64,000 bases of DNA from Cryptosporangium aurantiacum. GTDB taxonomy: Bacteria; Actinomycetota; Actinomycetes; Mycobacteriales; Cryptosporangiaceae. The notes under the pieces are model-generated. The model saw only the letters and a program-made list of their open reading frames with translations, ran no database searches and was not told the origin of the DNA. The position numbers were made by a program, and so were the translations under genes. The DNA is taken from contig NZ_FRCS01000016.1 in assembly GCF_900143005.1 (NCBI RefSeq), positions 62,001 through 126,000 on the forward strand, read 5' to 3'. Below are positions 10,974 to 48,519 of the stretch, in pieces; within the stretch, counting starts at the first letter, position 1; each line of letters starts with the position of its first letter.

Positions 10974-10990
10974 ATAGAATATACAATACG
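10974..10990. promoter_or_regulatory. AT-rich regulon motif, site 1 (MaoC/TetR divergent promoter)
   Basis: ATAGAATATACAATACG lies between the divergent MaoC and TetR starts, in DNA otherwise very GC-rich. It is nearly identical to the site at 48503 (first 11 bases the same). The shared core of all eight sites is TGTATA/TATACA. Role as an operator, a -10 element or both is inferred. Confidence 0.65.
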
Positions 10991-11015
10991 CATCGCTCGT
11001 GACCGGAGGTATGCG

Positions 11016-11594
11016 ATGACGACGACGTGGCAGACGGAGCGGCGAGGCCGCATCCTCGTCGCCGCCCGAGAGGCGCTGGAGGAACAGGAGTACGAGTCCG
11101 TCCAGATGCGGGACGTCGCCCAGCGCGCCGGGGTGGCGCTCGGCACGCTCTACCGGTGCTTCACGTCGAAGGAGCACCTGTACGCCGCGGTGCTCTCCGA
11201 CTGGGCGGCCGGCGCCGCCGCGGTGGCCGGAGCCGACCACGGGACGCCGGAAGCCCGGATGCGGGCCCGCATCCACGGCGTGATCGCCGCCTACGGACGC
11301 CTGCCCCAGTTCTACCGTGCCCACGTGACGCTGCAGAGCAGCGCCGACCCGAACGCCCGCGCGCTGCTGACCGAGTTCGGTCGCACCGCACGGGCGTCGC
11401 TGGCCGCGGAGGTGGCGGTGCTCGGCGCGGCGTCCGCCGAGGACGCGGCGACGATGCTCTGGGCGCTGATCACCTCGCGCCTGAGCCACGCGATCTACCG
11501 CGGCGGCAGCCTGGACGAGATCCACCGGATCGCCGACGAGTTCGTCGACCTGCTCGTCCCGCGGTTGCGAGACGAGCAGGTCGACGCACGATGA
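11016..11594 (+). CDS. TetR/AcrR-family regulator, KstR-like (copy 2)
   Basis: A 192-residue paralogue of the regulator at 4658-5281. The HTH (about residues 15-60) reads MRDVAQRAGVALGTLYRCF then TSKEHLYAAVL, again KstR-like. The ligand domain repeats QFYRAHVTLQSSADPN and EDAATMLWALITSRLSHAIY. ATG at 11016 is supported by GGAGGT six bases upstream. It diverges from the MaoC-thiolase operon, with AT-rich motif site 1 between them, so it is a candidate local repressor of that operon and of itself. A fatty or steroid-like acyl-CoA ligand would fit the family. Confidence 0.9.
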   Translation: MTTTWQTERRGRILVAAREALEEQEYESVQMRDVAQRAGVALGTLYRCFTSKEHLYAAVLSDWAAGAAAVAGADHGTPEARMRARIHGVIAAYGRLPQFYRAHVTLQSSADPNARALLTEFGRTARASLAAEVAVLGAASAEDAATMLWALITSRLSHAIYRGGSLDEIHRIADEFVDLLVPRLRDEQVDAR

Positions 11595-11599
11595 CCGGC

Positions 11600-12667
11600 T
11601 CAGTGGGCCGGCGTACGGCGGCGGCGGATCGGCCGTCCGACCAGCGCGGCGGCCACGAACAGCAGCAGGCCGATCAGGATCAGCACGATCGAGGCGCGAC
11701 CGCGCAGCCACGGAAGGACCAGCGCTGCTCCGCTCGCCTGGTCCAGCCGGTCCTGGGCCGGCTTGCCGCTCTCCAGCTTCGCCTCGAACGCGGTCACCGT
11801 ACGGCCGTTAGCGGTGTACTGCTGGGTGATCTCCTCGCGGATACCGACCACGTCACCGCTGTTCGGCTCGATCCAGTAGGTGCGGGTGCTCGCGTACCAC
11901 GCCTCGGCGTCGACGTTGAGTTCCTTCGAGCCGAACAGGCCGCCGGGCAACTCCCTCGACCCGACCTTCTGCAGCGGCACCGCCTTGCGGAACATGTACA
12001 CGTCGATGCCCTCGCGAGTGGACTCGCCGATGTACTCGGCGGTCGACGAGCGCTGCAGGTTGACGTCCCAGATCTGGTACGACTCCTTCTGGGTGTCGAA
12101 CGGGAACGTGTAGTAGCCCTCGTGGCGCAGGGGCTTCCCGTCCGGCTCCTCCTCGCTCTCGACGAGGCGGTCACCGCAGCAGTTCGTCGACTCGGTGGTG
12201 CTCCGGTCGATCGAGAGCCGCTCGACCCGCGCCTGGAGAAGGCCACGACCGTCGACCTCGATCCGGGTCGCGATGTCCCAGACGGCGTCGTTGTCGCCCT
12301 TGCCGTCGACGCCACGCGCCTCCGACACGAAGTTCGTGGCGGTCACGTCGACGCCGGTGAGCACGCTCGCACCGGCCGGATTACTCGGATCCGCCATCAG
12401 GACCGTGGCGTTCTCCGCTTTCAGGACCTGTTCGGTCTGTGGGTCTTCGGGGAGGACGGCCACTCGTGGGTAGACGTAGAGCGGCAACAGAATGCCGACG
12501 ACGAGCAAGAAGATTCCGAGACCGAGAAGCACGCTGCGGAGCAGCCGGCGAGATCGCGGAGGCTCTCCGGACGCGAGCGACGGGGCCGGCGCGGGCCGCA
12601 CCGGTGGCGGGGCCACCGGAGCCGACTCACGTTCGGACGTCACGCTCGGATCGGGAGCAGCAGTCAT
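11600..12667 (-). CDS. DUF3068 (PorA-family-like) membrane-anchored protein
   Basis: A 355-residue protein with a proline-rich cytoplasmic N-terminus (about 40 residues), a transmembrane helix at about 42-62 (LLGLGIFLLVVGILLPLYV), a large extracytoplasmic domain, and a second helix near the C-terminus ending in RPIRRRR. The pattern and internal motifs (NCCGDRLV, YWIEPNSGDVVGI) match DUF3068, annotated in actinobacteria as a PorA-family porin-like domain. Function is unknown. ATG at 12667 is used because the upstream frame codes for nothing protein-like. It diverges from a CaiB gene, with a perfect KstR-type box between them, suggesting control by the same steroid-type regulator. Confidence 0.75.
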   Translation of the reverse strand: MTAAPDPSVTSERESAPVAPPPVRPAPAPSLASGEPPRSRRLLRSVLLGLGIFLLVVGILLPLYVYPRVAVLPEDPQTEQVLKAENATVLMADPSNPAGASVLTGVDVTATNFVSEARGVDGKGDNDAVWDIATRIEVDGRGLLQARVERLSIDRSTTESTNCCGDRLVESEEEPDGKPLRHEGYYTFPFDTQKESYQIWDVNLQRSSTAEYIGESTREGIDVYMFRKAVPLQKVGSRELPGGLFGSKELNVDAEAWYASTRTYWIEPNSGDVVGIREEITQQYTANGRTVTAFEAKLESGKPAQDRLDQASGAALVLPWLRGRASIVLILIGLLLFVAAALVGRPIRRRRTPAH

Positions 12668-12827
12668 GGGGACACCATCCGATCGCCGTTGATCCAGAAA
12701 CAAACTGCGGAACGGGCGGGAGGAGCTCAGTGCGCGGGGGCCAGTGTCGGATTCTTCGGGCCCCGGCACTCACAACGGATGTCCGGTGTGAATTGGAACG
12801 CGAACACAGAACAACGTGGCGGAAATA

Positions 12828-12843
12828 CTAGAACCGGTTCTAG
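12828..12843. promoter_or_regulatory. KstR-type operator, perfect 16-bp palindrome
   Basis: CTAGAACCGGTTCTAG is perfectly palindromic and contains TAGAACCGGTTCTA, an exact match to TnnAACnnGTTnnA. It sits between the divergent DUF3068 (start 12667) and CaiB (start 12928) genes. A weaker AT-rich element, GATACTGTAGAAGATTC (12877-12893), lies just downstream and resembles the island motif at 12 of 17 positions. The pattern match is direct; regulation of both genes is inferred. Confidence 0.68.
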
Positions 12844-12927
12844 CGCCGGTCAACAGGAAGATCCACTCCCGTAATCGATACTGTAGAAGATTCTGCTTCG
12901 CTTGGTGATCCATTCGTGGAGGACGCA

Positions 12928-14151
12928 GTGACACAAATCCCTCCCCCGCTGGCCGGCCTACGGATTCTGGAGTGCTCGATCCTGGGGCCGGCGGCGGTCA
13001 CGACGCACCTGGCCGACCTCGGCGCCGAGGTGATCAAGGTCGAACCGCCGGGCGGCGACTACGTGCGAGGCATGGCGTGGCCGATCGTCGAGGGCGTCTC
13101 GCTGATGCATCTGCACCTCAACCGCGGAAAGCGCAGCGTCGTCCTGGACCTGCGCACCCCCGAGGGCGCGGCGGCGTTCACCGCGCTGGCCGCGCGGTCG
13201 GACGTCGTCGTGGAAGCGATGCGGCCGGGCGGCCTGGCGCGGCGCGGGCTCGGCTTCGAGACGCTGCGGGCGGTCAACCCCCGGCTCGTGTTCGCCACGA
13301 TCAGCGGCTTCGGCACCAGTGGGCCGCTGCGCGACCTGGCCAGTCACGGGATCGCGTTCGACACCTGGGCCGGGCTCATCACGCCCGAACCGGACGCCGA
13401 TGGCTTTCCGAGCATTCCCGACCACACCTCTATCGGAATCACCGCCGGGCCGCTGTTCGGTGCGCTCGGAATCCTCGCCGCGGTGCTGCGCGCCCGGGAG
13501 ACCGGCGCCGGCAGCCGCGTCGAAGTCGCCCAGTCGGACGCGGCCGCGGCGTTCGACTGGCTTCGGATCGAAGGGTGGCGGGCGTACCGACGGCCGGAGA
13601 ACGAGGTGACCGGCAACGCCGCCGACGGCTTACGACGCCGGGCGCCGGGCACCGGCGGAATGCGAGAAAGCGTCCGATATCAGGTGTACGCGACTCGTGA
13701 CGGGCACGTGCTGCTGATGGCGTCCGAGAACACGTTCTGGCGCAATTTCGCGCATACCGTCGGTCGTCCTGATTTGATCGACGAGAACGACCGGCAGGAG
13801 ATCGCGAACCACGCGGTCGGCAACGTCGCGCTCCGGCGGGAGCTGACGAAACTGTTCGCCGAACGCGACACCTGGGAGTGGGTGGAGCTCGGCGTCACCG
13901 CGAACGTACCGCTGGCGCCGGTGAACACGCCGCAGACCGTGGGCGACGATCCACAGTTCACCGCACGGCTGCCGTGGACGGACGTGGAACGGACCGGCAC
14001 CGAGATGATGCCGAACCCGATCCGGTTTCCGGACGAACCGGCTGTGCAGCCGACCAGGGCACCGACGCTCGGCGCCGACACCGAGGCCGTGCTCCGCGAC
14101 GTCGCCGGCTACACCGAGGCCCAGATCGCGGCGCTGCGCGGGACGCCCTAG
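12928..14151 (+). CDS. CaiB/BaiF-family CoA-transferase (1)
   Basis: A 407-residue class III CoA-transferase or acyl-CoA racemase. It shows LRILECSILGPAAVTTHLADLGAEVIKVEPP at the N-terminus, in pieces typical of the family, then LNRGKRSVVLDLR and the catalytic Asp region near residue 170 (PDHTS). The family moves CoA between acids or epimerises 2-methylacyl-CoAs. GTG at 12928 is preferred because GGAGGA precedes it by four bases; a GTG at 12916 is also in frame. A KstR-type box lies about 90 bp upstream. Its stop overlaps the convergent GntR gene by four bases. Confidence 0.87.
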   Translation: MTQIPPPLAGLRILECSILGPAAVTTHLADLGAEVIKVEPPGGDYVRGMAWPIVEGVSLMHLHLNRGKRSVVLDLRTPEGAAAFTALAARSDVVVEAMRPGGLARRGLGFETLRAVNPRLVFATISGFGTSGPLRDLASHGIAFDTWAGLITPEPDADGFPSIPDHTSIGITAGPLFGALGILAAVLRARETGAGSRVEVAQSDAAAAFDWLRIEGWRAYRRPENEVTGNAADGLRRRAPGTGGMRESVRYQVYATRDGHVLLMASENTFWRNFAHTVGRPDLIDENDRQEIANHAVGNVALRRELTKLFAERDTWEWVELGVTANVPLAPVNTPQTVGDDPQFTARLPWTDVERTGTEMMPNPIRFPDEPAVQPTRAPTLGADTEAVLRDVAGYTEAQIAALRGTP

Positions 14152-14837
14152 GAGAGCAACCCTCGCTCGGCCAGCAGGTCCACGACGCTGTCGGTCTCGG
14201 CGCGGAGCAGGTCGACGAACGCCGCCTCCGCGCCCGGGCCGTCACCGGCGCGCAGCGCCTTGAGCACGGTCCGCATCCCCCGCTTGTGGATCCGGATCAC
14301 GCCGGGCACCTCGGCGAAGAAGTTCCCCGGGACGATGTTCGTGGTGATCACCCTGGCCACCGCGGTGATCCGGCGCGACGACGCCATCAGCAGCAGCTGC
14401 CGCAGGAACGCGGTGTTGAGCGCGGAGAACGTGTCCGCCTCGGTCGCGGCCTGCAGGTCCTTGGCGATGTTCGCCAGCGTCGCGATCCCGTCCTCCGACC
14501 CGCGTTCGACCGCCCGCCGCGCAGCCAGGCCGTACATCAGCCCCAGCAGCTCGTAGTGGTCGCGGACCGAGTTCTCGTCCAGCCCGTTGACGAACGCACC
14601 GAGGTGCGGACGCGACGTGACCCACCCCTCGCGGTCGAGGGCGATCACCGCCTCCCGCACCGGCACCCGGCTCACCCGCAGCTCGGCGGCGATCTCGTCC
14701 TGGGGAACACGTTCCCCGGCCCGCAGCCGCTGGTCGAAGATCATCCGGCGGATGTGCGCGGCCACCTGCTGTGCACTGGTCGGACGGGACAGCCCACCGG
14801 CCTCGTCGGCAACGAAGTCGACCTGCTGGTTACCCAC
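14148..14837 (-). CDS. GntR-family transcriptional regulator, FCD subfamily
   Basis: A 229-residue regulator. The winged HTH (about residues 20-85) has AAHIRRMIFDQRLRAGERV and ELRVSRVPVREAVIAL, the standard GntR signature. The C-terminal all-helical domain is of FCD/FadR type. FCD-GntR proteins sense small acids or CoA esters and often bind AT-rich sites built on TGTATA-like half-sites. The AT-rich island motif lies in its own divergent promoter (14878-14894), so it is a strong candidate reader of the eight-site regulon. Start is GTG; the ribosome-binding site is weak. Confidence 0.9.
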   Translation of the reverse strand: MGNQQVDFVADEAGGLSRPTSAQQVAAHIRRMIFDQRLRAGERVPQDEIAAELRVSRVPVREAVIALDREGWVTSRPHLGAFVNGLDENSVRDHYELLGLMYGLAARRAVERGSEDGIATLANIAKDLQAATEADTFSALNTAFLRQLLLMASSRRITAVARVITTNIVPGNFFAEVPGVIRIHKRGMRTVLKALRAGDGPGAEAAFVDLLRAETDSVVDLLAERGLLS

Positions 14838-14877
14838 CCCTGCTCGCGTGACGATCGCGGACCTCCCTCATCCACCA

Positions 14878-14894
14878 ATGATATATACATTATC
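14878..14894. promoter_or_regulatory. AT-rich regulon motif, site 2 (GntR/enoyl-CoA hydratase)
   Basis: ATGATATATACATTATC lies between the divergent GntR and enoyl-CoA hydratase genes, 32 bp before the hydratase start. On the other strand it reads GATAATGTATATATCAT; the first ten bases equal those of the site at 20568. Position fits autoregulation of GntR. Confidence 0.68.
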
Positions 14895-14925
14895 TCATAC
14901 GGCTCTGACCTGCTCGGAGGTGCCC

Positions 14926-15672
14926 GTGTCGCTGGTCCGCACGCGCTTGCACGACGGTATCGGGCGGCTCACGCTCGCCGACCCCGGCCACCGCAACGCG
15001 CTGAGCCGCGAACTCAGCGACGATCTCGCGGCGGCGGTCCACGCGCTGGTGGCCGACGAGGCCCGGGCGCTGGTCCTAGACGCCGAGCCGCCGGTGTTCT
15101 GCGCCGGTGGTTCGCTCGACGGACTGATCGCGCGCGACTATCCGCTGGCGGCGTCCTACGCGGGGTTCACCGCGCTCGCCGACGCTCCGGTCCCGACGAT
15201 CGCCGCGGTGAGCGGGCCCGCGATCGGCGCCGGCGTCAACCTGCCGCTGGCCTGCGACGTCGTCCTGGCCGGCGAGAGCGCCCGGTTCGACCCGCGCTTC
15301 CTCGACGTCGGCATCCACCCCGGCGGCGGGCACCTGTGGCGGCTCGCCGAACGGATCGGCGAGCAGGGCGCCGCCGCGCTGGTGCTCTGCGGCGACAGCC
15401 TCACCGGCGCGGAAGCCGCAGCCCGCGGCCTGGCCTGGCGCTGCGTCCCGGACGCCGAACTGCCCGCGCTGGCCACCGCGTTCGCCGAGCGGGTGGCGGC
15501 GCGGTCGCCCGAGCTGGTGCGGCTGGCGAAGGCGACGCTCCGGGCGTCCCGGTCGCTGACCGACCCGGCCGACGCCGCCGCGGTGGAGCTCGCCGCCCAG
15601 GAGTGGTCGGTGGCGCAGCCGTACTTCCGGGAAACCGTGACGCGGTTACGGGCGAAGGTCCGGTCTCGCTGA
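14926..15672 (+). CDS. Enoyl-CoA hydratase/isomerase family protein
   Basis: A 248-residue crotonase-fold protein. The oxyanion-hole segments are VFCAGGSLDGL (about residue 60) and AAVSGPAIGAGVNLPLACDV (about 100), followed by GIHPGGGHLWRL. Catalysis could be hydration, isomerisation or another crotonase reaction. GTG at 14926 has GGAGG five bases upstream. It is first in a short operon with CaiB 2, though that gene has its own motif copy. It is shorter than the other hydratases here and diverged from them. Confidence 0.9.
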   Translation: MSLVRTRLHDGIGRLTLADPGHRNALSRELSDDLAAAVHALVADEARALVLDAEPPVFCAGGSLDGLIARDYPLAASYAGFTALADAPVPTIAAVSGPAIGAGVNLPLACDVVLAGESARFDPRFLDVGIHPGGGHLWRLAERIGEQGAAALVLCGDSLTGAEAAARGLAWRCVPDAELPALATAFAERVAARSPELVRLAKATLRASRSLTDPADAAAVELAAQEWSVAQPYFRETVTRLRAKVRSR

Positions 15673-15676
15673 CGCG

Positions 15677-15693
15677 TATCTTGTATATTTTAT
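15677..15693. promoter_or_regulatory. AT-rich regulon motif, site 3 and leaderless promoter of CaiB 2
   Basis: TATCTTGTATATTTTAT ends two bases before ATG 15696. TATATT at 15684-15689 is followed by exactly six bases and the ATG, the spacing expected for a -10 hexamer of a leaderless transcript. No Shine-Dalgarno sequence is present, which agrees. Operator and promoter may coincide. Confidence 0.6.
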
Positions 15694-15695
15694 CT

Positions 15696-16925
15696 ATGAC
15701 GGTGCCGTTACCCCTCGCCGGCGTCCGCGTCCTCGCGCTGGAACAGATGCAGGCCGTCCCGTTCGCGACCCAGCTGCTGGCCCGCCTCGGCGCCGACGTC
15801 GTGAAGGTCGAGCCGCTGGCGGGCGAGTCCGGTCGCGCCGCCCAGCCGGCGATGATCGACGGGTCGGGCCGCCGCGCCGGTGCGACGTTCCTCCGCTACG
15901 GATCCGGTAAGCGCAGCATCGCCGTCGACCTCAAGGACCCCCGGGGGCGCGACCTCGTCCTCGGGCTGGCCGAACGGTTCGACGTGCTCGCGGAGAACCT
16001 CGGCCCCGGGCGCGCCGATCGGCTCGGCTTCGGGTACGAGTCGGTCAGCGAACGGAACCCCAGGCTGGTGTACCTGAGCATCACCGGGTTCGGGCGCGAC
16101 GTCGAGGGGTCGCCGTACGCGCGCTGGCCGGCCTACGCGAGCGTCGCGGAGGCGATGTGCGGCGCCTACGAGTACGCCCGGCATCCGCACCAGCCGCCGG
16201 TGCTCAACCCGATGGGCGGCCTCGGCGACACCGGCACCGGGCTGTTCGGCGTCATCGGGGTCCTCGCCGCTCTCCGGCACCGCGAGCAGACCGGCCGGGG
16301 CCAGCTCGTCGACGTCGCGATGCTGGACGCGATGCTGTCGATCTCGGACGTCGTCACGAACTTCTGGTCGATGGGGCTGCGCCGCGAGCCGGACGTGGAG
16401 ACGCGCGTCCCGTACCTGCTCACGTCGTTCCGCTGCCGGGACGGCTGGTGCGTGCTGCAGGTCAGCAGGCCGCACCAGTTCGAGCGGCTGGCGCGCCTGC
16501 TGGGGCGTCCGGAGTGGGTCGGCGACGAGCGGTTCGCCGACGGCTGGGGCTGGCACGACCGGTGGCCGGACACGATCCGTCCCGCGGTCGAGGACTGGGC
16601 CGCGGGCTACGGCATGCGCGACGCCGCCGGGCGCCTCGCCGACGCCGGTCTGGTCGCCGCGCCGTGTTACCGCGCCGAGGACGTCGTCCACGACCCGCAC
16701 GTCGCGGCCCGCCGCATGCTGGTGGAGATCCCCCGGCCCGACGGCGCGCCGGACCCCGTCCTCGTCGCCGGGAACCCGGTCAAGCTCTCCGCGGTGCCCG
16801 ACACCGGGGAGAAGCGGCCACCGTACGTCGGAGAGCACACCGCCGAGCTGCTGGGCGCCGAGCTAGGCCTCACCGCCGACGCGGTGGCGGCCCTCAACGC
16901 CCAGGGCATCGTCGGGCTCGGCTGA
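15696..16925 (+). CDS. CaiB/BaiF-family CoA-transferase (2)
   Basis: A 409-residue class III CoA-transferase. The N-terminus has PLAGVRVLALEQMQAVPFAT and LGADVVKVEPL; RYGSGKRSIAVDLKDP and NPMGGLGDTGTG follow, the last placing an Asp in the expected active-site region. It starts at an ATG with no ribosome-binding site, directly behind AT-rich motif site 3, implying a leaderless mRNA. Downstream, a long perfect inverted repeat separates it from the convergent amidohydrolase gene. Either CoA transfer or 2-methylacyl-CoA racemisation would fit the pathway. Confidence 0.88.
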   Translation: MTVPLPLAGVRVLALEQMQAVPFATQLLARLGADVVKVEPLAGESGRAAQPAMIDGSGRRAGATFLRYGSGKRSIAVDLKDPRGRDLVLGLAERFDVLAENLGPGRADRLGFGYESVSERNPRLVYLSITGFGRDVEGSPYARWPAYASVAEAMCGAYEYARHPHQPPVLNPMGGLGDTGTGLFGVIGVLAALRHREQTGRGQLVDVAMLDAMLSISDVVTNFWSMGLRREPDVETRVPYLLTSFRCRDGWCVLQVSRPHQFERLARLLGRPEWVGDERFADGWGWHDRWPDTIRPAVEDWAAGYGMRDAAGRLADAGLVAAPCYRAEDVVHDPHVAARRMLVEIPRPDGAPDPVLVAGNPVKLSAVPDTGEKRPPYVGEHTAELLGAELGLTADAVAALNAQGIVGLG

Positions 16926-16932
16926 ACGAGAC

Positions 16933-16984: not shown

Positions 16985-16999
16985 CGCAGACGTCGCGGG

Positions 17000-18265: not shown

Positions 18266-19008
18266 GATTCCTCCTCGGTCCAAGCGCTGCGGCGGTCAGC
18301 GCGGGTCGGCTGCCGCCCGGTACGGAACGGGCTCAGCTCGGCGTCGACCAGCAGGAACCGGTGCGCCGAGGTCGTGCGCGGATAGAACGACCGCCGCCAG
18401 CGCCCGAGCTTGGTGTCGGCGCGCTCCGCCTTCTCCGCGGACGCCCACTGCTCCCAGGTCGGGATCGCCCAGAGCAGGAAGATCTCGGAGTCGCCGGTCA
18501 TCGCGGTCTCCCACGCGCCGGCGAGTTGCCACCCGTGCTCACTCAGCAACGGTTCGGCGTCGGCGGCGCGCGCGAGCAGCTCCGCCGCACCGCCCGGCGC
18601 GCACGTGAACTGCTCGTGCGCATAGACCTCCCCACGCACACCGTCCGCGCAGAGCTCGGAGATCGTCCGTGTCCACGGCGCCGGGACCAGCAGCCGGTCG
18701 GTGCCGTGCGACCGGAACCTGGCGGCCTCGGCCCACCACTTCGCGAGCTTCGGATCCTGCAGCGTGGTGCTGCCCAGCTCGTGCCGGAACGAGGACGCCA
18801 TCCCGTCGAAGCCGTCCTCCTCCCAGAGGTTCAGCACCGACGGCCAGTCGCGGGTCGTCCCGACGATGCCCCAGACCCCGTAGCAGAGCTGGTTGCGCTC
18901 CTCCTGGGCGATCGGGCTCCAGTTCGCGGTCATGTGGTGCATGTAGTCCGCGCGATGGTGCCCGATGATGTCGATGAACTCGTGGATGTAGACCTTCTCG
19001 TTCGTCAT
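18262..19008 (-). CDS. NIPSNAP-like / dimeric alpha-beta barrel hypothetical protein
   Basis: A 248-residue cytoplasmic protein with no signal peptide. Two similar halves each contain a short beta-strand and a Trp-rich helix (YGVWGIVGTTRDWPSVLNLW; LLWAIPTWEQW), resembling tandem ferredoxin-like dimeric alpha-beta barrels such as NIPSNAP. This relationship is a tentative reading. ATG at 19008 overlaps the ligase stop as ATGA and its own stop overlaps the amidohydrolase start, so it is firmly in that operon. A role handling the CoA-activated substrate is possible, but no catalytic residues are recognised. Confidence 0.55.
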   Translation of the reverse strand: MTNEKVYIHEFIDIIGHHRADYMHHMTANWSPIAQEERNQLCYGVWGIVGTTRDWPSVLNLWEEDGFDGMASSFRHELGSTTLQDPKLAKWWAEAARFRSHGTDRLLVPAPWTRTISELCADGVRGEVYAHEQFTCAPGGAAELLARAADAEPLLSEHGWQLAGAWETAMTGDSEIFLLWAIPTWEQWASAEKAERADTKLGRWRRSFYPRTTSAHRFLLVDAELSPFRTGRQPTRADRRSAWTEEES

Positions 19009-20549
19009 CGCAGGGCCTCCGCGACCCGATCCCGCAGGACCCGCTTCTCGACCTTGCCCGTGCGGTTCAGCGGCAGCTCGTCCACGATCTCCAGGTAGCG
19101 GGGCACCTTGTAGTTGGCCATCCGCCCCCGGCACCACTCGAGGAGGTCACCGGGGTCGGCCCCGGCGCGCGGCACCACGAACGCGTACCCGACTTCCCCG
19201 AGCCGCTCGTCCGGCGCCCCCACCACCGCCACCGCCGCGACTCCCTCGTGCCCGAGCAGCACGTTCTCGATCTCCGCCGGATAGGCGTTGAAGCCGCCGA
19301 CGATGAACATGTCCTTGATCCGGTCGGTGATCCGCAGGTTGCCCGCCGCGTCGAGCACGCCGATGTCGCCGGTCTTCAGCCAGCCGTCGGCGTCGATCGC
19401 CGCCGCGGTCGCGTCCGGGTCGCCGTAGTAGCCGCGCATCACCGCGAACCCCCGCGCGAGCACCTCGCCGGGCTCCCCGGCCTGCACGTCCTTCCCGTCC
19501 CGATCGACGATCCGCACCGCCATGCCCGGGATCGGTCGCCCGCTGGTGTTCGCGATGACCTCGATCGGATCGTCGTGCCGGCACGCGGTGACCGTGCCCG
19601 TCGTCTCGGTCAGCCCGTAGGCGGTGACCACCGACGCGAACCCCAGTTCGTCCCGCATCCGCCGGACCAGCTCCACCGGCACCGCGGCCGCCCCGGTCAC
19701 GGCCAGCCGCAGCGAGGACCGGTCGTAGCCGCTCAGGTCCGCGTTCAGCAGCGACTGGTACAGCGACGGCGGCCCCGGCAGCATCGTCACGCGCTCTTTC
19801 TCGACCAGGCTCATCACCGTGTTCACCGCGAACACCGGGCACGGCACGATCGTCGCGCCGCGCAACGCACACGCCAGCACCGCCGACTTCAGCCCCGCGC
19901 AGTGGAAGAACGGATAGACGACCAGGTACCGGTCCCCGTGGCGCAGCCCCACGGCGTCCGACCACGCCAGATACGTCCGTGTACTCGACCCGTGCGTCAG
20001 CAGCGCACCCTTGGGGCGCCCGGTGGTCCCCGACGTGAAGATCACGTCCGACGGGTCGTCCGCGGTCAGGGCCTCTTCCGCCGGCGTGTGGTCGACGCCC
20101 GCTCCGCGGGCCAGAAAGTCCCGCCACGAATCCGGCTTCCCCGACATGATGACGACGTCGAGCGAACCCAGAAGTTCGGGGTCGACAGACAGCGCCTGGA
20201 CATAGTCGGTGTCCAGAAAATCCGTGACCGTGAACAGCAGCTTCGCGCCGGCGGTGCGTAACGCCTGCGCGGCCTCCGCACCGGTGAAGCGGGTGTTGAC
20301 CGGCGCCAGGATCGCCCCGGCGGCGTAGACGCCCATCGACGCGACGATCCAGCCGGTGGAGTTCGGCGCCCAGAGGCCCACCCGGTCACCGGGGCGGACG
20401 CCGCTGCCGACCAGCGCGCGGGCAACCTCGGTCGCCCGGTCGGCGAGCTCGGCCCAGGTGGTGCGGCGGCCGTCCTCGACCACCGCGGTCTCGTCCGGCC
20501 ATCGGGCGGCCGCACGCCGGAGCGCAGCCGGAATCGTCTCGGGCTCCAT
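19005..20549 (-). CDS. Acyl-CoA synthetase, FadD3-like
   Basis: A 514-residue ANL-superfamily ligase. The P-loop FTSGTTGRPKGALL lies near residue 170, YGLTETTG near 325, TGDIG near 415, and the catalytic lysine in NRTGKVEKR is about residue 499. It activates a carboxylic acid to its CoA ester via an acyl-adenylate. Overall length and order resemble FadD3, which activates the steroid CD-ring acid HIP, but substrate identity is not shown by sequence. Start ATG has AGGAGGT upstream. AT-rich motif site 4 (20568-20584) lies at its promoter; amidohydrolase and NIPSNAP-like genes follow. Confidence 0.9.
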   Translation of the reverse strand: MEPETIPAALRRAAARWPDETAVVEDGRRTTWAELADRATEVARALVGSGVRPGDRVGLWAPNSTGWIVASMGVYAAGAILAPVNTRFTGAEAAQALRTAGAKLLFTVTDFLDTDYVQALSVDPELLGSLDVVIMSGKPDSWRDFLARGAGVDHTPAEEALTADDPSDVIFTSGTTGRPKGALLTHGSSTRTYLAWSDAVGLRHGDRYLVVYPFFHCAGLKSAVLACALRGATIVPCPVFAVNTVMSLVEKERVTMLPGPPSLYQSLLNADLSGYDRSSLRLAVTGAAAVPVELVRRMRDELGFASVVTAYGLTETTGTVTACRHDDPIEVIANTSGRPIPGMAVRIVDRDGKDVQAGEPGEVLARGFAVMRGYYGDPDATAAAIDADGWLKTGDIGVLDAAGNLRITDRIKDMFIVGGFNAYPAEIENVLLGHEGVAAVAVVGAPDERLGEVGYAFVVPRAGADPGDLLEWCRGRMANYKVPRYLEIVDELPLNRTGKVEKRVLRDRVAEALR

Positions 20550-20567
20550 GGCACCTCCTGTTGGCGC

Positions 20568-20584
20568 GTACTTTATACATTATC
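20568..20584. promoter_or_regulatory. AT-rich regulon motif, site 4 (ligase operon)
   Basis: GTACTTTATACATTATC lies 19 bp upstream of the ligase start. On the coding strand it reads GATAATGTATAAAGTAC, close to the consensus of the eight sites. It sits between the ligase start and the terminator of the neighbouring operon. Confidence 0.68.
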
Positions 20585-20612
20585 AGGGCACCACCGCACG
20601 GGGGCGGCCGCC

Positions 20613-20663: not shown

Positions 20664-20666
20664 CGG

Positions 20667-27040: not shown

Positions 27041-27064
27041 GAACCGGAGGGTAGTCGCATGTTA

Positions 27065-27081
27065 GATTTTATACAAAGTAC
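27065..27081. promoter_or_regulatory. AT-rich regulon motif, site 5 (divergent dehydrogenases)
   Basis: GATTTTATACAAAGTAC fills half of the 41-bp gap between two divergent acyl-CoA dehydrogenase genes. TATACA (27070-27075) is followed by six bases and ATG 27082, the spacing of a leaderless -10 element. A single element may therefore drive or repress both directions. Confidence 0.67.
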
Positions 27082-30562: not shown

Positions 30563-31726
30563 TCAGCGGGTCACTATCCACACCAGACCACGGTCGGCGC
30601 TGTTGGCCCCGGTGTCCGATCCGGCGATCAGGCCGGCGTTCGTGAGCCACTGGGCGTCGCCGGAGCGGCCCGACGGGATCGACGGGAGCTCGAGCGCGCG
30701 CCGATCGGTACCCCAGAACACCGCCCGGCGCCCCGAGAGGAGGATGTTCGAGGAGCCGACGACCTCACCACGGTCGTTGACGTCGTGCGCAGAGCTGGGG
30801 CCGCCGACCGGCAGCGTGCCGAGGTCGATCGGCTTGCTGGTGGCGCTCGGCCAGAGCGTCGCGCGGCTCTGCCCGTACCAGTTGTCCGACGACCCAGCGA
30901 TCGCACCGGCCTCGTTGATCCCCTGGCCCAGGGAGTACCCGTTACTGGCCAGGTCCGTCAGCCAGCGCACCGTTCCGGCCTGCCAGACCGCGGTCCGGGT
31001 CGGTGACGTGCCGGTGGCGGCGAGGACCTGACCGGCCTCGTTGATGTCGTTGATCAGGCCGTTCGGTCCGACCACCGGCAGCAGGTCGGTGCGGACGCCA
31101 GCGGCCCAGACGAACGGCACGCCGATGCCCTGGGCGAGGCTCCGGCCGTTGACGGCGACCACGCCGCTGTCGGTGAGCATCACGGTCGCATGGCTGCTGG
31201 AGTAGGTGAGTTGCCCAACCGTCACGCCGGCGGCGAGCGGGATGTCGGTGAGCGTGTCCCCGGTGCGCAGCGCCAGGCGGCTCGCACTGGTGCCGATCTC
31301 TCCGGGCAGGGTGTAACCGATCACGGCCTGCCCGCGGTCGTTCAGGGCCAGCGCCCAGCTGTCCTGCGCACCGGCGGGGGCGACGTCGGTCGGAGTTCCG
31401 TTCGCCGACCACAGCGTCGCCCTGGCCTGCTCGCCGACGTAGCGCGTCCCGGCGACGGTGCCCGAGTCGTTGACCGCGGTGGCGCGACCGGACGTGGTGA
31501 TCGTCGTCAGCGTGCCGTCGTGCCAGAGCGTCGGGCTGAAGTGCCCGCTCGTCGTCGGGTAGCCGAGCACGTAGCCGCCCTCGCTCACATCGAAGATGTG
31601 GAACCGTTCGTCGGGCACCGGATTGATCAGCCGCGCGGTGGGTGCCGCGCTCACCGGAGTGGCGGTCCCCGCCACCACCACCAGTACCGCTACGGCGCAC
31701 GTCGTCACTCGCCGGATCCACGTCAT
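30563..31726 (-). CDS. Secreted HAF-repeat (extracellular repeat) protein
   Basis: A 387-residue protein with a Sec signal peptide (RRVTTCAVAVLVVVAG, cleavage probably after VSAAP). The mature part is built of about 45-residue repeats with the HAF-type pattern of W-x-G/x-T plus INEAGAIAGSS, VNDRGEVVGSS and LNDRGQAVIGY. Such proteins are extracellular beta-propeller-like repeats of unknown function. It does not belong functionally to the CoA pathway and interrupts the island together with the next gene. Confidence 0.78.
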   Translation of the reverse strand: MTWIRRVTTCAVAVLVVVAGTATPVSAAPTARLINPVPDERFHIFDVSEGGYVLGYPTTSGHFSPTLWHDGTLTTITTSGRATAVNDSGTVAGTRYVGEQARATLWSANGTPTDVAPAGAQDSWALALNDRGQAVIGYTLPGEIGTSASRLALRTGDTLTDIPLAAGVTVGQLTYSSSHATVMLTDSGVVAVNGRSLAQGIGVPFVWAAGVRTDLLPVVGPNGLINDINEAGQVLAATGTSPTRTAVWQAGTVRWLTDLASNGYSLGQGINEAGAIAGSSDNWYGQSRATLWPSATSKPIDLGTLPVGGPSSAHDVNDRGEVVGSSNILLSGRRAVFWGTDRRALELPSIPSGRSGDAQWLTNAGLIAGSDTGANSADRGLVWIVTR

Positions 31727-31804
31727 GAGCGCGGACGCTAATCGCGTCGTCCGACGCGGCTCAGCGAATTAGCCGGATCTATCAAATACTGGTGGAAAAC
31801 CCTG

Positions 31805-31840
31805 CACGTCCCGGCGCCCGTGCGGGGGCGCCGGGACGTG
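31805..31840 (-). terminator. Stem-loop terminator after the secreted-protein gene
   Basis: CACGTCCCGGCGCCC and its perfect 15-base complement flank a six-base loop, nine bases after the stop of the secreted protein at 31849. It lies between that gene and the HAF-repeat gene, whose promoter must be in the remaining 78 bp. No T-run. Confidence 0.8.
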
Positions 31841-31848
31841 AAGCGGGG

Positions 31849-32385
31849 TCAGCTCACCTGAATGGAGGCTGCCACACCCGGCGGTGACGTCGGCGTGCAC
31901 GGGATCGTGAACGTGCCGAAGATCGTGCTCGCCACCGCCGACGCGGTGCCCGGCGTCAGGTCGACCTGGCCCGGTGCGGTCAGCGTCAGCTGCCCGGTCA
32001 TCGGCGGCAACTGGATCGGCGTCCCCGCCGGGATCGTCTCCGGGTTGGCCGGCCCGGTCACCGTCACGGTGCCGGTCTGGGCGCCCGAGACGACGCCCTC
32101 GGCGGAGGGTGTCACGCTGCCCGCCGCCAGGTCGATCGGTGAGGTGACCGGCGTCGGACCGGTCGTCACCGTGATCTCGACCGTCTCGCCGACCGTCGCC
32201 GTCGCGGGCGCGGTGACCGTGACCTCGACGTCGCCGACGACGGTGCCGGACAGCGGGGTCTCACACGAGTAGTTGACCGTGACCGTGTCGGCGTGGGCTG
32301 GTCCGCCGGTCAGCACGGCGACACCGGTCGCCGCACCGAAGACCGCAACCGCAGCGAGCCGCTTCATGAGGGGTTGAGAAGACAC
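31849..32385 (-). CDS. Secreted beta-sandwich-like hypothetical protein
   Basis: A 178-residue protein with a signal peptide (MKRLAAVAVFGAATGVAVL, cleavage near AHAD). The mature chain begins VTVNYSCETPLSG and continues with V-T-rich strands (VEVTVTAPATATVGETVEIT), and has one distal Cys (TIPCTPT) for a likely disulfide. The pattern is common among actinomycete exported proteins (DUF6801-like), function unknown. GTG at 32385 is chosen because AAGGAG precedes it by six bases. A strong sigma70-like promoter lies upstream. Confidence 0.7.
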   Translation of the reverse strand: MSSQPLMKRLAAVAVFGAATGVAVLTGGPAHADTVTVNYSCETPLSGTVVGDVEVTVTAPATATVGETVEITVTTGPTPVTSPIDLAAGSVTPSAEGVVSGAQTGTVTVTGPANPETIPAGTPIQLPPMTGQLTLTAPGQVDLTPGTASAVASTIFGTFTIPCTPTSPPGVAASIQVS

Positions 32386-34045: not shown

Positions 34046-34062
34046 GTACATTTTATATAGTA
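34046..34062. promoter_or_regulatory. AT-rich regulon motif, site 6 (ligase/SDR divergent promoter)
   Basis: GTACATTTTATATAGTA lies between the divergent ligase and SDR genes. It is the least conserved of the eight elements (about 11 of 17 positions match the site-4 sequence in the better orientation) but has the same base composition and location. Confidence 0.55.
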
Positions 34063-34094
34063 GGTAGCCCGCCCCTCAGCTTCCGGGAGACCGC

Positions 34095-34895: not shown

Positions 34896-34904
34896 CCGGC
34901 CTCC

Positions 34905-35705: not shown

Positions 35706-35728
35706 GTCTCCTCCAGCCAAGGTTTTCT

Positions 35729-35745
35729 ATACTTTATACATGATG
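35729..35745. promoter_or_regulatory. AT-rich regulon motif, site 7 (dioxygenase promoter)
   Basis: ATACTTTATACATGATG lies 24 bp upstream of the dioxygenase start. Its TACTTTATACAT core (12 bases) is identical to that of site 4. The remaining 55 bp to the thiolase stop show only a short GGGC/GCCC hairpin. Confidence 0.67.
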
Positions 35746-37003: not shown

Positions 37004-37008
37004 GTTCG

Positions 37009-43540: not shown

Positions 43541-44352
43541 CAGACCCCGCCGAACCGCGGTGGCCGCTTCTCCAGGAACGCCCGCACCGCCTCCCGGTGG
43601 TCCGCGGTCTCGAACGTCAGCGCCTCCATCGCCAGCGACGCGTCCAGCACCCGGTTGACCCGGTCCACCAGGTCGGCGTTGGCGAGCCGCTTGTTGAACT
43701 GGATCGCCACCGCGGGCCCGGCCGCGATCCGCTCGGCCAGTTTCGTCGCTTCGGCCTCCAGCGATGCCGCCGGGTAGACGTGGTTGACCAGGCCGAACCC
43801 GTCCGCTTCGGCCGCGGTCATCAGGTCGCCGGTGAACAGGTACTCCTTGCCCCGGTTCAGACCGAGCATCAGCGGCCACAGCACGGTGCCGCCGTCCCCG
43901 GCGACCAGCCCGGCCTTGACATGCGGGTCACCGATCCGGGCGGTGTCGGCCATCAGCGTGATGTCGCAGAACAGCGCCATCGTCGCGCCGAGCCCGAGCG
44001 CGTCACCGTTGATCACCGCGATCATCGGCTGCGGCACCGCGAGCTGCCCGCGCACCACCGCGACCGAGCCCTGCATCAGCGAAGGATGCCCGTCCTCGTA
44101 CGCCGACGAGTCGAGGTTGGACTGCATCCCGCTGAAGTCCGCGCCGACGCAGAACGCCTTATCCCCCGCGCCGGTCAGCACCACGACCCGGACGTCCCGG
44201 TCGGCGGCGATCCGCGCGAACAGCGGCGCGATCTCGTCGTGCATCTCGGGCGTGATCGCGTTGCGGCGCTCCGGCCGGTCGAACGTCACCCACAGGACGC
44301 CGGGCGGCCGCAGCTCGGTCCGGAAGTAGGTGAAGTCGTAACGATCAGACAT
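43540..44352 (-). CDS. Enoyl-CoA hydratase/isomerase family protein
   Basis: A 270-residue crotonase. FDRPERRNAITPEM, DKAFCVGADFSGM and MIAVINGDALGLGATMALFCDITL supply the oxyanion hole; GLVAGDGGTVLWPLMLG replaces the usual catalytic Glu pair, so it may be an isomerase or another crotonase activity rather than a hydratase. The C-terminal FLEKRPPRFGG is a common family ending. ATG at 44352 follows GAGGGG. It is the fifth gene of the 12-gene operon. Confidence 0.9.
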   Translation of the reverse strand: MSDRYDFTYFRTELRPPGVLWVTFDRPERRNAITPEMHDEIAPLFARIAADRDVRVVVLTGAGDKAFCVGADFSGMQSNLDSSAYEDGHPSLMQGSVAVVRGQLAVPQPMIAVINGDALGLGATMALFCDITLMADTARIGDPHVKAGLVAGDGGTVLWPLMLGLNRGKEYLFTGDLMTAAEADGFGLVNHVYPAASLEAEATKLAERIAAGPAVAIQFNKRLANADLVDRVNRVLDASLAMEALTFETADHREAVRAFLEKRPPRFGGV

Positions 44353-44362
44353 GAAAGACCCC

Positions 44363-45412
44363 TCAGACGGAAGCCGTGAGACCGGGAACCCCGACCTCGG
44401 ACGCGTACCGATCGAGTTCCGCGCACAGCGCCTCCGGCAGCGGGATGCCATCGCGGTGACGCTGCTGACGCCGCTCGTGTTCGAGTTCACCGGGCACCAG
44501 CACGCGTTCGACACCGGCGGCGGGCCGGGACGCGTGGACGTCCCGGATCAGCGTGTCCACCCGGGCCCGGAAGTCGGGCACGAACCGAGCGGGGTCGATC
44601 GCCAGGAACAGGAAACCCTTCGCGACCCGCTCGGCGCCGTGCACCGGAGACGCGGTGTGTTCGGTCCGCCCGAAGCTGCTGCCGGTAAGCACACCCGCGA
44701 GCAGTTCGACCAGCAGCGCGAGCCCGTAACCCTTGTGGCCGCCGAACCACTGCAGGTGCCGCACGGACGCCACCGCCGGGTCGGTCGTCGGGACGCCGTC
44801 GGCATCGGTCGCCCACCCGGCCGGGATCGACGCGTCCCCGCGTTTCTGCGCCAGCAGCAGCTTGTTGCCGGCGACGGTCGTCGTCGCGACGTCGAACACG
44901 ATCGTCGGTTCGTCACCGGTCGGGATCGCATACGACAGCGGGTTCGTGGAGAACAGCTGGTCGATGCCGCCGAACGGCGGCACGAACGTCGGGCCGTTCT
45001 GGAAGCACAGGCAGATCCGCCCGGCGCGCGCCACCCGCTCGGTGTACGCGGCGAGCGCGCCGAGGTGGGTGCCCTCGCGGACCGCCACCGCGGCGATCCC
45101 GAACTCCTCGGAGCGGGAGATCGCGTGGTGGACGGCGGCGAGCCCGGCGATCTGCCCGAACCCGAGGCCCGCGTCGAGCACCAGCGTGGAGCCCTCGTCG
45201 GAGACGATTTTCGGCTTGGCGGCCGGGTCGAGGTGCCCGCTGCGGATCCGCTGGGCGTAGAGCGCCATCAGGTGCGCGCCGTGCGAGTCGACGCCACGCA
45301 GGTCGGCCTCCACCAGCAGCGTGGCGACCGTGTCGGCGTACTCGCGGGGCGCGCCGAGCCCCTCCAGGATGTCGGAGAGCAGCGTGTGCAGACGGCCGGC
45401 GGCGACGATCAT
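44363..45412 (-). CDS. Malate/L-lactate (Ldh2/MDH2)-family NAD(P)-dependent dehydrogenase
   Basis: A 349-residue protein of the Ldh2/MDH2/DpkA type, a fold unrelated to classical lactate dehydrogenase. The conserved GVDSHGAHL (with the catalytic His), AVREGTHLGALAAYT and FSTNPLSYAIPTG motifs are present, with QWFGGHKGYGLALLVELLAG later. Substrates in the family are 2-hydroxy or 2-oxo acids and ureidoglycolate. In this operon, a 2-hydroxy acid released from the substrate is plausible. ATG 45412 overlaps the aldehyde dehydrogenase stop as ATGA. Confidence 0.88.
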   Translation of the reverse strand: MIVAAGRLHTLLSDILEGLGAPREYADTVATLLVEADLRGVDSHGAHLMALYAQRIRSGHLDPAAKPKIVSDEGSTLVLDAGLGFGQIAGLAAVHHAISRSEEFGIAAVAVREGTHLGALAAYTERVARAGRICLCFQNGPTFVPPFGGIDQLFSTNPLSYAIPTGDEPTIVFDVATTTVAGNKLLLAQKRGDASIPAGWATDADGVPTTDPAVASVRHLQWFGGHKGYGLALLVELLAGVLTGSSFGRTEHTASPVHGAERVAKGFLFLAIDPARFVPDFRARVDTLIRDVHASRPAAGVERVLVPGELEHERRQQRHRDGIPLPEALCAELDRYASEVGVPGLTASV

Positions 45413-46878
45413 CGGAGCTCCAGCGGCAGGTAGACGTTTTTGGTCCGGACGAACTCGGCCAGGCCCTCGCGGCCGCCCTCCTTGCCGAAGCCGCTGCGGC
45501 CGTAACCGCCGAACGGGGCCGCGGCGGGCAGTGCCGCGAACCCGTTGAGCGAGACGTACCCGGCGTCGAGGGCCGCGGCGACCCGGTGGGCGCGGGACAG
45601 GTCGGTCGTGTGCACGTACCCGGCGAGCCCGTACGGCGTCGCGTTGGCCAGCGCGATCGCCTCGTCCTCGTCGTCGAACGTCAGCACCGCCAGGACCGGG
45701 CCGAACACCTCTTCCTGCGCCAGCGGCGCATCGGCCGCGATCCGGTCGACCACCGTGGGCGCCACGTAGAACCCGGGCTCGTCCAGCCGGTGGCCTCCGG
45801 TCAGGATCTCCCCGTCGGCCGCCGAGACCATGGCCAGGATGCGGTCGGCGTGCCGCGCCGACACCACCGGCCCGAACGCGGTCGCCGGGTCGAGCGGATC
45901 CCCGATCGGCATGGCCGCGATTCCGGCGAGCGCGCGGGAAACGATCTGGTCATGGATCGAGGAGTGGACGATCAACCGGGTCGGCATCACGCAGCCCTGG
46001 CCGGAGTTGCGCATGCAGGCGACGCCGGCGAACGCCCCGGCGGCGTCCAGGTCGGCGTCGGGGAAGACGATGTTCCCGGACTTGCCGCCGAGCTCGAGCA
46101 CCACCGGCGTGATGTGCTGCGCGGCCGCGACCAGGATCTGCCGGGCGGCCTCGATCCCGCCGGTGAAGCTGATCTTGTCGACGCCGGGATGGGCCACCAG
46201 CGCTCGTCCGGCCTCCACCCCGCCCGGCAGCACATTGACGACCCCGGGCGGAAAACCCGCTTCGAGCGCGAGTTCGCCGAAGATCACCGCGCTGAACGGC
46301 GCCAGCTCCATCGCCTTGACGACGACCGTGTTGCCGGCCGCGAGCGCCGCACCGGCCTTCCGGCCCAGCGCGGAGATGCCGCCGTTCCAGGTGGACACGA
46401 CCGCGACGACCCCGTACGGCTCGGGCAGCGTGTAGTCGAACGCCCGCTCCGGGAAGATCGGGATCACGCTGCCCTCGATCTTGTCCGCCAGCCCCGCGTA
46501 GTACTCGAGGTAGTCAGCGGCTCGCGCGGGTAACGCGGTGGCACCGAGTATCGGCGAACCACACTCCAGCGTCAGCACCTGGCCGATCGTGGACGCCCGC
46601 GAACGGATCAGCTCCGCGAGCCGGAGCAGGGCGTTCCGCCGGAGATCCGGCCGCAGTCCGCGCCAGGCCGGAAACGCGTCCCGGGCCGCCGCCACCGCCG
46701 CGTCCACCTCGGCCGCGCCGGCCAGCGGCACGGTGGCCTGCGGACGCCCGGTCGCGGCGTCGACGTGCTGGTACTCCCCGCCGCTGCCCGCGCGCAGCCA
46801 CGCGTCGCCGACCAGCAGGCCGGTCTGCGGCAGCACCTCGGCGGCCAGTTGTTCGTGCCGGTCGAGATCGACGACCAT
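45409..46878 (-). CDS. NAD(P)-dependent aldehyde dehydrogenase
   Basis: A 489-residue ALDH. Catalytic Glu262 (LELGGKSGN) and Cys296 (NSGQGC) are in place, with the cofactor motif SFTGGIEAAR near residue 238 and EEVFGPVLAVL. It would oxidise an aldehyde to an acid. Two starts compete, GTG 46881 and ATG 46878; the latter is better spaced from GGAGGG. It lies between the ThDP enzyme gene and the Ldh2-type gene, consistent with removal of the aldehyde produced by a C-C lyase. Confidence 0.92.
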   Translation of the reverse strand: MVVDLDRHEQLAAEVLPQTGLLVGDAWLRAGSGGEYQHVDAATGRPQATVPLAGAAEVDAAVAAARDAFPAWRGLRPDLRRNALLRLAELIRSRASTIGQVLTLECGSPILGATALPARAADYLEYYAGLADKIEGSVIPIFPERAFDYTLPEPYGVVAVVSTWNGGISALGRKAGAALAAGNTVVVKAMELAPFSAVIFGELALEAGFPPGVVNVLPGGVEAGRALVAHPGVDKISFTGGIEAARQILVAAAQHITPVVLELGGKSGNIVFPDADLDAAGAFAGVACMRNSGQGCVMPTRLIVHSSIHDQIVSRALAGIAAMPIGDPLDPATAFGPVVSARHADRILAMVSAADGEILTGGHRLDEPGFYVAPTVVDRIAADAPLAQEEVFGPVLAVLTFDDEDEAIALANATPYGLAGYVHTTDLSRAHRVAAALDAGYVSLNGFAALPAAAPFGGYGRSGFGKEGGREGLAEFVRTKNVYLPLELR

Positions 46879-46893
46879 CACAATCCCTCCGAC

Positions 46894-48504
46894 TCAGAAC
46901 GGCGACGGCAGGCGGTCCATCGGAACCGCGATCACGGTCGAGCCCTCGGTAGCCAGCGCCTCGGTCAGCGCGGCGGGCAACCTCGCGATGTCGTTCACGA
47001 CCATCCCGTCCGCACCGAACGCCCGGGCCAGCGCGACCCAGTCGGGGTTGCGCAGCGCGGTGCCGTACTCCCGGCCGCCGAACCGGTCGCGCTGGTCGCG
47101 GTTGGAGTTGCCGTACGCCCCGTCGTCGAAGACGACCGTGACCGTGTGAATGCCGTGCTGCACCGCGGTGGCCAGCTCGTTGGACCCGAACAGGAACCCG
47201 CCGTCGCCGGTCACGGTGACGACCGGCGCGTCCGGCGCCGCGACCTTCACACCCAGCGACGCCGGGTAACCGAAGCCGAGCGTGCCCATGTACGACGTGG
47301 AGAGGTAGGTGCGCGGCGCGTACACCGGGTAGCCCATGTGGCACATGTAGGCGACGCTCGTCGTGTCGCAGACCAGGATGCCGTCCTCCGGGATGCCCCG
47401 GCGCAGCGCCCGGACCATCTCCCACTGCGGCCCGACGGCGGCCAGCCGCTCCTCGGCGGTGGCCCGCATCGCGCGGGTCTCCGCGGTCCCGTCCGGTCGC
47501 TGGTCGAGCTGCTCGGCGAGCTTCTCCAGGGTGAGCGCCGCGTCCCCGGCGACCGCCACCGCCGCCGGGTGGTTACGGCCGATCTGCTCGGCGTCGACGT
47601 CCAGGTGGATCAGCCGCTGACCGTCGCGCAGGCCGAGGCCCGCGCCCCGGGTGCCGACCGCCAGCACGACGTCCGCCGCGCCGAGCACCGGCCGCATCCG
47701 CGGGTTCACCCAGGCGGTCCCGACCGAGAGCGGATGGCGATCGTCGATCGCTCCCTTGCCCTCGCGGGTGGTGACGACCGGCGCCTGCAGGAGTTCGGCG
47801 ACCCGCGTGAGCGCGGCCGTCGCGTCCCCGAGAACAACGCCGCCTCCGGCGACCACCACGGGTGCGGACGCTGTGCGCAGCGCCGCCGCGGCGGCGGTGA
47901 GCTGCGCGTCCTCCGCCGCTGCCCGGGGCACCCGTACCGGGTCCACCACACCAGCGGTGGTCTTCTCGGCGAACGTCTCGGGCGGGATCTCCACCTCCAC
48001 CGGCCGCGGCCGCCCGGACGTCATCCGGGTGAACGCCTCGCCGACGCCCGCCGCGACGTCGGCCGGGTCGGTGATCCGCCGGGCCCACTTGGTGATCGGC
48101 CGGACGATCTCCAGCTGGTCGTGGACGTCGTGCAGCAGGCCCAGTTCGCGGCCGATGCCCGCACGGTTCACCTGGCCGGCCAGCAGCAGCACCGGCGACG
48201 AGCAGGCGTATGCGGTCGCGAGCCCGGTGGCCGCGTTGTAGACGCCCACGCCCGGCACGACCATCGCGACGCCGGGGCGCCCTGACGTGCGGGCGTACCC
48301 GTCGGCCATGTACGTGGTCGCCTGCTCGTGGCGGGTGACGATGTAGCGCAGCTCCGGCCGGTCGACGAACGCGTCGAGCGCCGTCATCAGCTGGTCCCCG
48401 GGTAGGCCGAAGATCACCTCGACACCCTCGGCGACGAGCTGCCCGGCCAGCGCCTGGCCGCCGGTCAGCTGATCGGCCCGCGCACCCTCGTTCAGCGATT
48501 GCAT
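46894..48504 (-). CDS. Thiamine-diphosphate-dependent decarboxylase/lyase
   Basis: A 536-residue three-domain ThDP enzyme. Catalytic Glu60 is in TRHEQAT; the middle domain carries ASAPVVVAGGGVVLG; the cofactor-binding GDGGF lies near residue 440, with the expected partner site reading VVFDDGAYGN (Asp where Asn is usual). The family spans acetolactate synthases, benzoylformate decarboxylases and 2-hydroxyacyl-CoA lyases. The adjoining aldehyde dehydrogenase favours an aldehyde product. ATG 48504 has no ribosome-binding site and directly abuts AT-rich site 8, so it is likely leaderless from an internal promoter. Confidence 0.88.
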   Translation of the reverse strand: MQSLNEGARADQLTGGQALAGQLVAEGVEVIFGLPGDQLMTALDAFVDRPELRYIVTRHEQATTYMADGYARTSGRPGVAMVVPGVGVYNAATGLATAYACSSPVLLLAGQVNRAGIGRELGLLHDVHDQLEIVRPITKWARRITDPADVAAGVGEAFTRMTSGRPRPVEVEIPPETFAEKTTAGVVDPVRVPRAAAEDAQLTAAAAALRTASAPVVVAGGGVVLGDATAALTRVAELLQAPVVTTREGKGAIDDRHPLSVGTAWVNPRMRPVLGAADVVLAVGTRGAGLGLRDGQRLIHLDVDAEQIGRNHPAAVAVAGDAALTLEKLAEQLDQRPDGTAETRAMRATAEERLAAVGPQWEMVRALRRGIPEDGILVCDTTSVAYMCHMGYPVYAPRTYLSTSYMGTLGFGYPASLGVKVAAPDAPVVTVTGDGGFLFGSNELATAVQHGIHTVTVVFDDGAYGNSNRDQRDRFGGREYGTALRNPDWVALARAFGADGMVVNDIARLPAALTEALATEGSTVIAVPMDRLPSPF

Positions 48505-48519
48505 AGAATATACATTACA
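48503..48519. promoter_or_regulatory. AT-rich regulon motif, site 8 (internal promoter before the ThDP gene)
   Basis: ATAGAATATACATTACA lies in the 27-bp gap between the LLM and ThDP genes of the long operon. On the coding strand TAATGT ends seven bases before ATG 48504, suitable for a leaderless start. It matches site 1 in the first 11 bases. Confidence 0.68.

Follow-up and report, generated by a model that had tools for sequence, protein, structure and literature searches.

The 64,000 nucleotides analysed here (the window; Cryptosporangium aurantiacum contig NZ_FRCS01000016.1, forward-strand positions 62,001 to 126,000) have a GC content of 72% and contain an acyl-coenzyme A (acyl-CoA) catabolic island with a gene for an FCD-type GntR regulator (GntR 14148) and another for a KstR-like TetR regulator (TetR 11016). 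Eight AT-rich elements stand at promoters of this island. The units that they head comprise, by our own gene calls, 31 genes (32 with CoA-transferase 12916), encoding CoA-transferases, acyl-CoA dehydrogenases, ligases, hydratases, thiolases, a thiamine pyrophosphate (TPP) enzyme, a dioxygenase and both regulators. Here, we propose that the elements are very probably the operators of GntR 14148. A first-pass annotation of the sequence had listed them, and each was found where it had placed it (8/8). Its description of their settings also holds: four lie between divergent genes (10974, 14878, 27065 and 34046), one precedes an operon leader (20568), one sits within a long block on the minus strand (35729) and two directly adjoin start codons (15677 and 48503).

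The elements share the form of an imperfect 18-bp palindrome, ATAnWWTATACAwtAT. There are ten A/T clusters (at least 13 A/T per 17 bases) in the window, eight of which are the elements, and unsupervised motif finding in about 60 bp around each element returned an imperfect palindrome, ATAnTnTATAnAnTAT, or ATActATATACAttATnc when no symmetry was imposed. TATA is invariant, and 38 of the 72 pairs across the eight elements are symmetric, compared with a mean of 23.6 after shuffling (0/5000 shuffles reach 38). Opposite the conserved C, all eight have A or T, so each site combines one strong half with one weak half. On a palindromic matrix built from the elements, they score 24.1–28.6 bits and are the eight best places in the window; the runners-up reach 13.1 bits (12870, inside the island) and then 7.9, and the top score per window in 40 Markov-simulated windows had a mean of 9.6 and a maximum of 13.4. 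Scored with a matrix from the other seven, each element still reaches 18.1–26.9 bits and is outscored only by fellow members. Chance AT-rich patches were considered as an explanation of the elements and rejected. An unrelated AT-rich element, TATAAGTAGAATCCAAT, lies at 9178–9195 ahead of the glycosyltransferase gene 7804–9084 (minus strand) and is kept in three other genomes of the genus (G001, G002 and G003); at 7.9 bits on the palindromic matrix it is not a GntR site.

Table 1 Predicted operators and related features in the window (G001, G002 and G003 are other genomes of the genus).
Feature	Position	Strand	Setting	Score or domain match	Counterparts
Predicted operator	10973..10990	+	Between MaoC (-) and TetR (+)	25.2 bits	G001, G002, G003
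Predicted ninth operator, decayed	12870..12887	+	Ahead of CoA-transferase 12916	13.1 bits	G001 26.4, G002 19.3, G003 29.6 bits
Predicted operator	14877..14894	+	Between gntR (-) and enoyl-CoA hydratase (+)	28.3 bits	G002 25.0, G001 17.7 bits; G003 half-site, about 11–13
Predicted operator	15677..15694	-	Abuts ATG of CoA-transferase 15696	28.2 bits	G001 25.5, G002 27.4 bits
Predicted operator	20567..20584	+	Ahead of ligase operon 19005-20549 (-)	27.0 bits	GATAATGTATAAAGTA identical in G001 and G002
Predicted operator	27063..27080	+	Between divergent acyl-CoA dehydrogenase operons	24.1 bits	GATTTTATACAAAGTAC identical in G001 and G002
Predicted operator	34047..34064	-	Between ligase 32509 (-) and short-chain dehydrogenase/reductase 34095 (+)	24.9 bits	G002 20.6 bits
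Predicted operator	35728..35745	+	Ahead of TauD-family dioxygenase 34905 (-), inside long block	28.6 bits	G002 26.5 bits
Predicted operator	48502..48519	+	Abuts ATG of TPP enzyme 46894-48504 (-), leading 11-gene block	26.9 bits	18-mer shared with G001 and G002
KstR-type palindrome TAGAACCGGTTCTA	12829..12842		Apart from GntR sites; sole exact match in window		Kept in G001 and G002
FCD-type GntR regulator, proposed binder	14148..14837	-		Pfam GntR 2.8e-16, FCD 2e-11	
KstR-like TetR regulator, probable target	11016..11594	+		Pfam TetR_N 1.3e-14	

The window is part of contig C16 of a genome of 9,579,923 bases in 44 contigs, and a scan of that genome, the check proposed in the first-pass annotation, found the motif almost wholly confined to the island. 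Stricter earlier patterns missed several sites, and a degenerate pattern drawn from the window's own sites, RTRNWWTATAMAWDRY, was used instead, with the reversed pattern as control. All six exact matches lie in the island (6/6), and eight of the ten matches with at most one mismatch are the eight sites. Allowing two mismatches gave 48 rows genome-wide versus 61 for the control, hence no excess beyond the strong sites. A few regulon targets may exist beyond the island. A sequence-only covariance model was too insensitive to add to this (one match genome-wide at E up to 10); its input was 23 site strings, with omission of the left-of-window site described below (three genomes), L014 5319 and 6125, L018 3626 and the G003 half-site. 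The earlier statement that no element lies outside the island is true within the window, but a conserved copy (20.5 bits, with counterparts in G001 and G002) lies about 1.2 kb to its left, at C16:60770-60795 (L028 18776). All of the eight originally counted are present, but a full tally needs this copy and the decayed ninth at 12870. The left-hand copy precedes a luciferase-like monooxygenase gene (Pfam 8e-39), a possible extra target.

The sites are also kept among relatives. GntR orthologues in G001, G002 and G003 are 86–91% identical, and island synteny is largely kept in the first two and reduced in the third. Counterparts of all eight sites were found in G002 and of six in G001, where the 34046 and 35729 sites are gone along with their intergenic stretches; G003 retains the MaoC/TetR site, the site at the 12916 position and a gntR half-site. 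In alignments the site cores persist and the flanks vary, for example at the ligase promoter and the divergent dehydrogenase promoters. The counterparts ahead of CoA-transferase 12916 are stronger in all three relatives than the site here, and by this comparison 12870 is a putative ninth operator in decay. G004, from the same family and another genus, has neither such a GntR nor a one-mismatch motif match in its genome. Identical copies of the segment RVSRVPVREAVIALD occur in GntR 14148, in all three orthologues, in the GntR of Yinghuangia seranimata and in a 73% paralogue in G002, which itself has a 23.7-bit site about 40–55 bp upstream. Near paralogues of 52–53% identity there is an AT-rich patch containing TTGGATCCAA (L024 12173-12210 and L026 13969-13986), between amidohydrolase-like and CoA-transferase-like genes; it is perhaps a diverged operator.

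The motif also accompanies GntR homologues outside the genus. Close homologues are rare, being present in 8/397 genomes of the order (E 1e-55) and, in a class-level search, in 14/394 genomes (E 1e-62), own genome and genus included in both. We took 18 homologues from 17 genomes outside the genus (46–54% identical), with 9–18 kb around each (248 kb in total), and compared them with 24 control stretches (480 kb) at a threshold of at least 15 bits, using a matrix from the window sites only. All 18 loci were counted, six of which had shown a match of at least 13 bits beforehand in short stretches. The matrix found 32 sites, at 15 of the 18 loci, versus two in the controls (Fisher 7e-14), and 200 column-shuffled matrices found a mean of 4.2 sites (maximum 19). 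The 12 loci that at first had no match within 1.5 kb still hold 19 sites in 162 kb. In Yinghuangia seranimata (GntR 62% identical), 20.6 kb hold two sites, one between gntR and a TPP-enzyme gene and one just before the homologue of 18262, and these two account for two of the three one-mismatch matches in that genome. The genome-wide location of the motif, its conservation in relatives and its presence with distant GntR homologues and in Yinghuangia thus support the first-pass view of a single regulon under the FCD-GntR.

Several observations weigh against this assignment. The reversed-pattern control gives six genome matches with at most one mismatch, compared with ten for RTRNWWTATAMAWDRY, and on a 16-base matrix, where the island sites score 21.4–29.3, three places elsewhere come near the weakest of them (C6:73727 at 22.0, C20:54444 at 20.8 and C5:329473 at 20.2). 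The site at gntR is weak in G001 and only a half-site in G003, and the best sites at the loci of the 52–53% paralogues reach only 15.5–17.3 bits. No site of at least 15 bits was found at three of the 18 distant loci (L156, L157 and L161) or at the locus of an Acidimicrobiia homologue (L012). The distant loci are not all independent: several come from a common genus and carry the same sites (L089, L096, L158 and L163 are examples) and therefore represent fewer lineages. Both control matches come from a single stretch, on a G563 contig where GntR copies also occur.

GntR 14148 combines an N-terminal GntR winged helix with a C-terminal FCD domain, both with Pfam scores above cut-off. Its predicted model (mean predicted local distance difference test score (pLDDT) 84.9, predicted template modelling score (pTM) 0.77) has a six-helix effector domain at residues 88–224, which agrees, as a prediction, with the VanR subgroup. 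The nearest fold by E-value is Atu1419 of Agrobacterium fabrum (6za3, E 7e-10, template modelling (TM) score 0.63); TM0439, like Atu1419 a metal-binding FCD protein with three metal-ligating histidines in its effector domain, has a higher TM-score (0.73). Zinc-binding His141, His192 and His214 of Atu1419 align with L, with M or similar and with L in the window protein, the second and third positions being read from the alignment by eye, so the metal site is not kept and the ligand probably differs. Atu1419, an FCD/VanR-type GntR with ATGTATACAT palindromes over −10 boxes (PMC7797058), is the closest precedent. The likeness extends to the domain make-up, to a ATGTATACAT core that resembles the TATACAT half here, and to several palindromes within one catabolic cluster, own promoter included, that overlap −10 boxes (candidate ones here). 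The two proteins are only about 25% identical, however, and Atu1419 has a perfect 10-bp palindrome, as opposed to one weaker half here, three genes rather than about 31, and the zinc histidines that are not kept here.

The first-pass annotation had the gntR gene carry a site in its own promoter, and the element at 14877 bears this out at 28.3 bits. Across the island, site centres lie about 6–60 bp upstream of start codons; two automatic starts were too short, and with ATG starts at 20549 and 27040 these distances are about 27 and 32 bp. Where sites abut the ATG, at 15677 and 48503, TATATT and TAATGT stand 12–7 and 13–8 bases before it, a spacing that would suit leaderless transcripts. The closeness to start codons and the overlap with candidate −10 elements make it likely that the core promoter is covered, as reported for Atu1419. 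GntR would bind across the −10 region and transcription start, as a dimer or a dimer of dimers, and would repress its own gene together with some 31 genes arranged in 11 directional units. Release would come from a small pathway ligand, which may be a CoA thioester or an organic acid, in a pocket that lacks the zinc histidines of Atu1419. That GntR instead activates on binding, or activates some promoters and represses others, is unlikely: a dual role has been discussed for the related HypR (PMC6608401), but the position of the sites relative to start codons and candidate −10 elements is that of the Atu1419 repressor sites. No good site was found at PorA 11600, at genes 30563 and 31895 or at monooxygenase 48532. 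Genes 30563 and 31895, which occupy 30563-32272 between regulated units, have no Pfam match and no site; neither was matched in the fetched G001 stretches, 31895 is present in G002, and the segment is perhaps an insertion.

The first-pass annotation also noted an element in the promoter of TetR 11016, which is there, and left this protein open as an alternative binder. An assignment of the elements to TetR 11016 would fit the adjacency of TetR and site in the own genome and in G001, G002 and G003, as well as a 25.6-bit site on G002:C38 that lies 4 kb from a TetR homologue (72% identical to TetR 4658, the other TetR of the island). That G002:C38 site (L091 6719-6736) is away from any GntR and near ligase-type homologues. 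We nevertheless regard this assignment as quite improbable. A tblastn search (E up to 1e-6) matched neither island TetR in L027 or at any of the 18 distant GntR loci; a single partial match of 65 residues was found in L011, and the best Yinghuangia match to TetR 11016 is likewise partial (44%, E 1e-15). There is no site ahead of TetR 4658. Both proteins resemble KstR, the TetR repressor of cholesterol catabolism, below the family cut-off (57.9 bits against 280 for TetR 11016, which is thus KstR-like only; TetR 4658 also falls well below it). KstR binds palindromes of the type of its operator TNNAACNNGTTNNA, which is not the AT-rich motif. A separate palindrome of this kind, one exact TAGAACNNGTTCTA at 12829, is conserved and adjoins the decayed GntR site. 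With a KstR-like TetR and a conserved KstR-type palindrome in place, TetR 11016 is more probably a target than the protein that binds the AT-rich sites, and it could act one tier below GntR, under its control and through a KstR-type site of its own. KstR-type palindromes with at most one mismatch number 24 in the genome versus six for the control; seven lie within 27 kb at C1:1145674-1173081, a cluster that looks like a KstR-type regulon elsewhere in the genome.

A reading of the elements as mere −10 boxes, recognised by the main sigma factor or by an alternative one, would suit their AT-richness, their nearness to start codons and the leaderless −10 spacing of two, but it is barely credible given that they exceed a −10 box in length and specificity, hardly occur outside the island, are more symmetric than shuffles and travel with GntR homologues, and that no sigma factor was among the 40 proteins scanned.

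With GntR 14148 as the proposed binder, the island fits the pattern of a local, autoregulated catabolic repressor, with a predicted site in its own promoter and seven further sites at neighbouring promoters. Similar features are given for FadR-subfamily operators in Suvorova et al. 2015 (PMC4494728), namely an AT-rich palindrome, an ACA box, divergons with one central site and autoregulation; in contrast to the TKGT/ACMA consensus given there, the ACA box here is on one half and the other has no GT box. HypR of Streptomyces coelicolor is also an actinobacterial FCD-GntR and, in its own case, autorepressor of a catabolic operon, but its motif, CTNTGC(A/C)ATGTCAC, differs from the one here (PMC6608401). 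Searches confined to the open-access literature yielded no account of the regulator or the motif in acyl-CoA islands of actinobacteria. The predicted regulon is local, well bounded and of a well-known type, and the predicted regulator–operator pairing is new and recurs in other families. A wider scheme is speculative, and we rate it as somewhat doubtful: an actinobacterial FCD-GntR lineage that has lost its metal site might sense a CoA thioester or related intermediate and act through asymmetric TATACA operators fused with −10 elements, some of them at leaderless promoters, so that one repressor would stand over a whole 40-kb island and above a KstR-like regulator, and comparable islands in several families would use the same code.

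The analysis provides a matrix with which sites of this GntR lineage can be sought; no description of the lineage was found in the open-access literature. Some 31 genes of an uncharacterised island for acyl-CoA catabolism now have a predicted regulator and operator, as do comparable islands in other families, so that one reporter would be enough to look for the inducing substrate.

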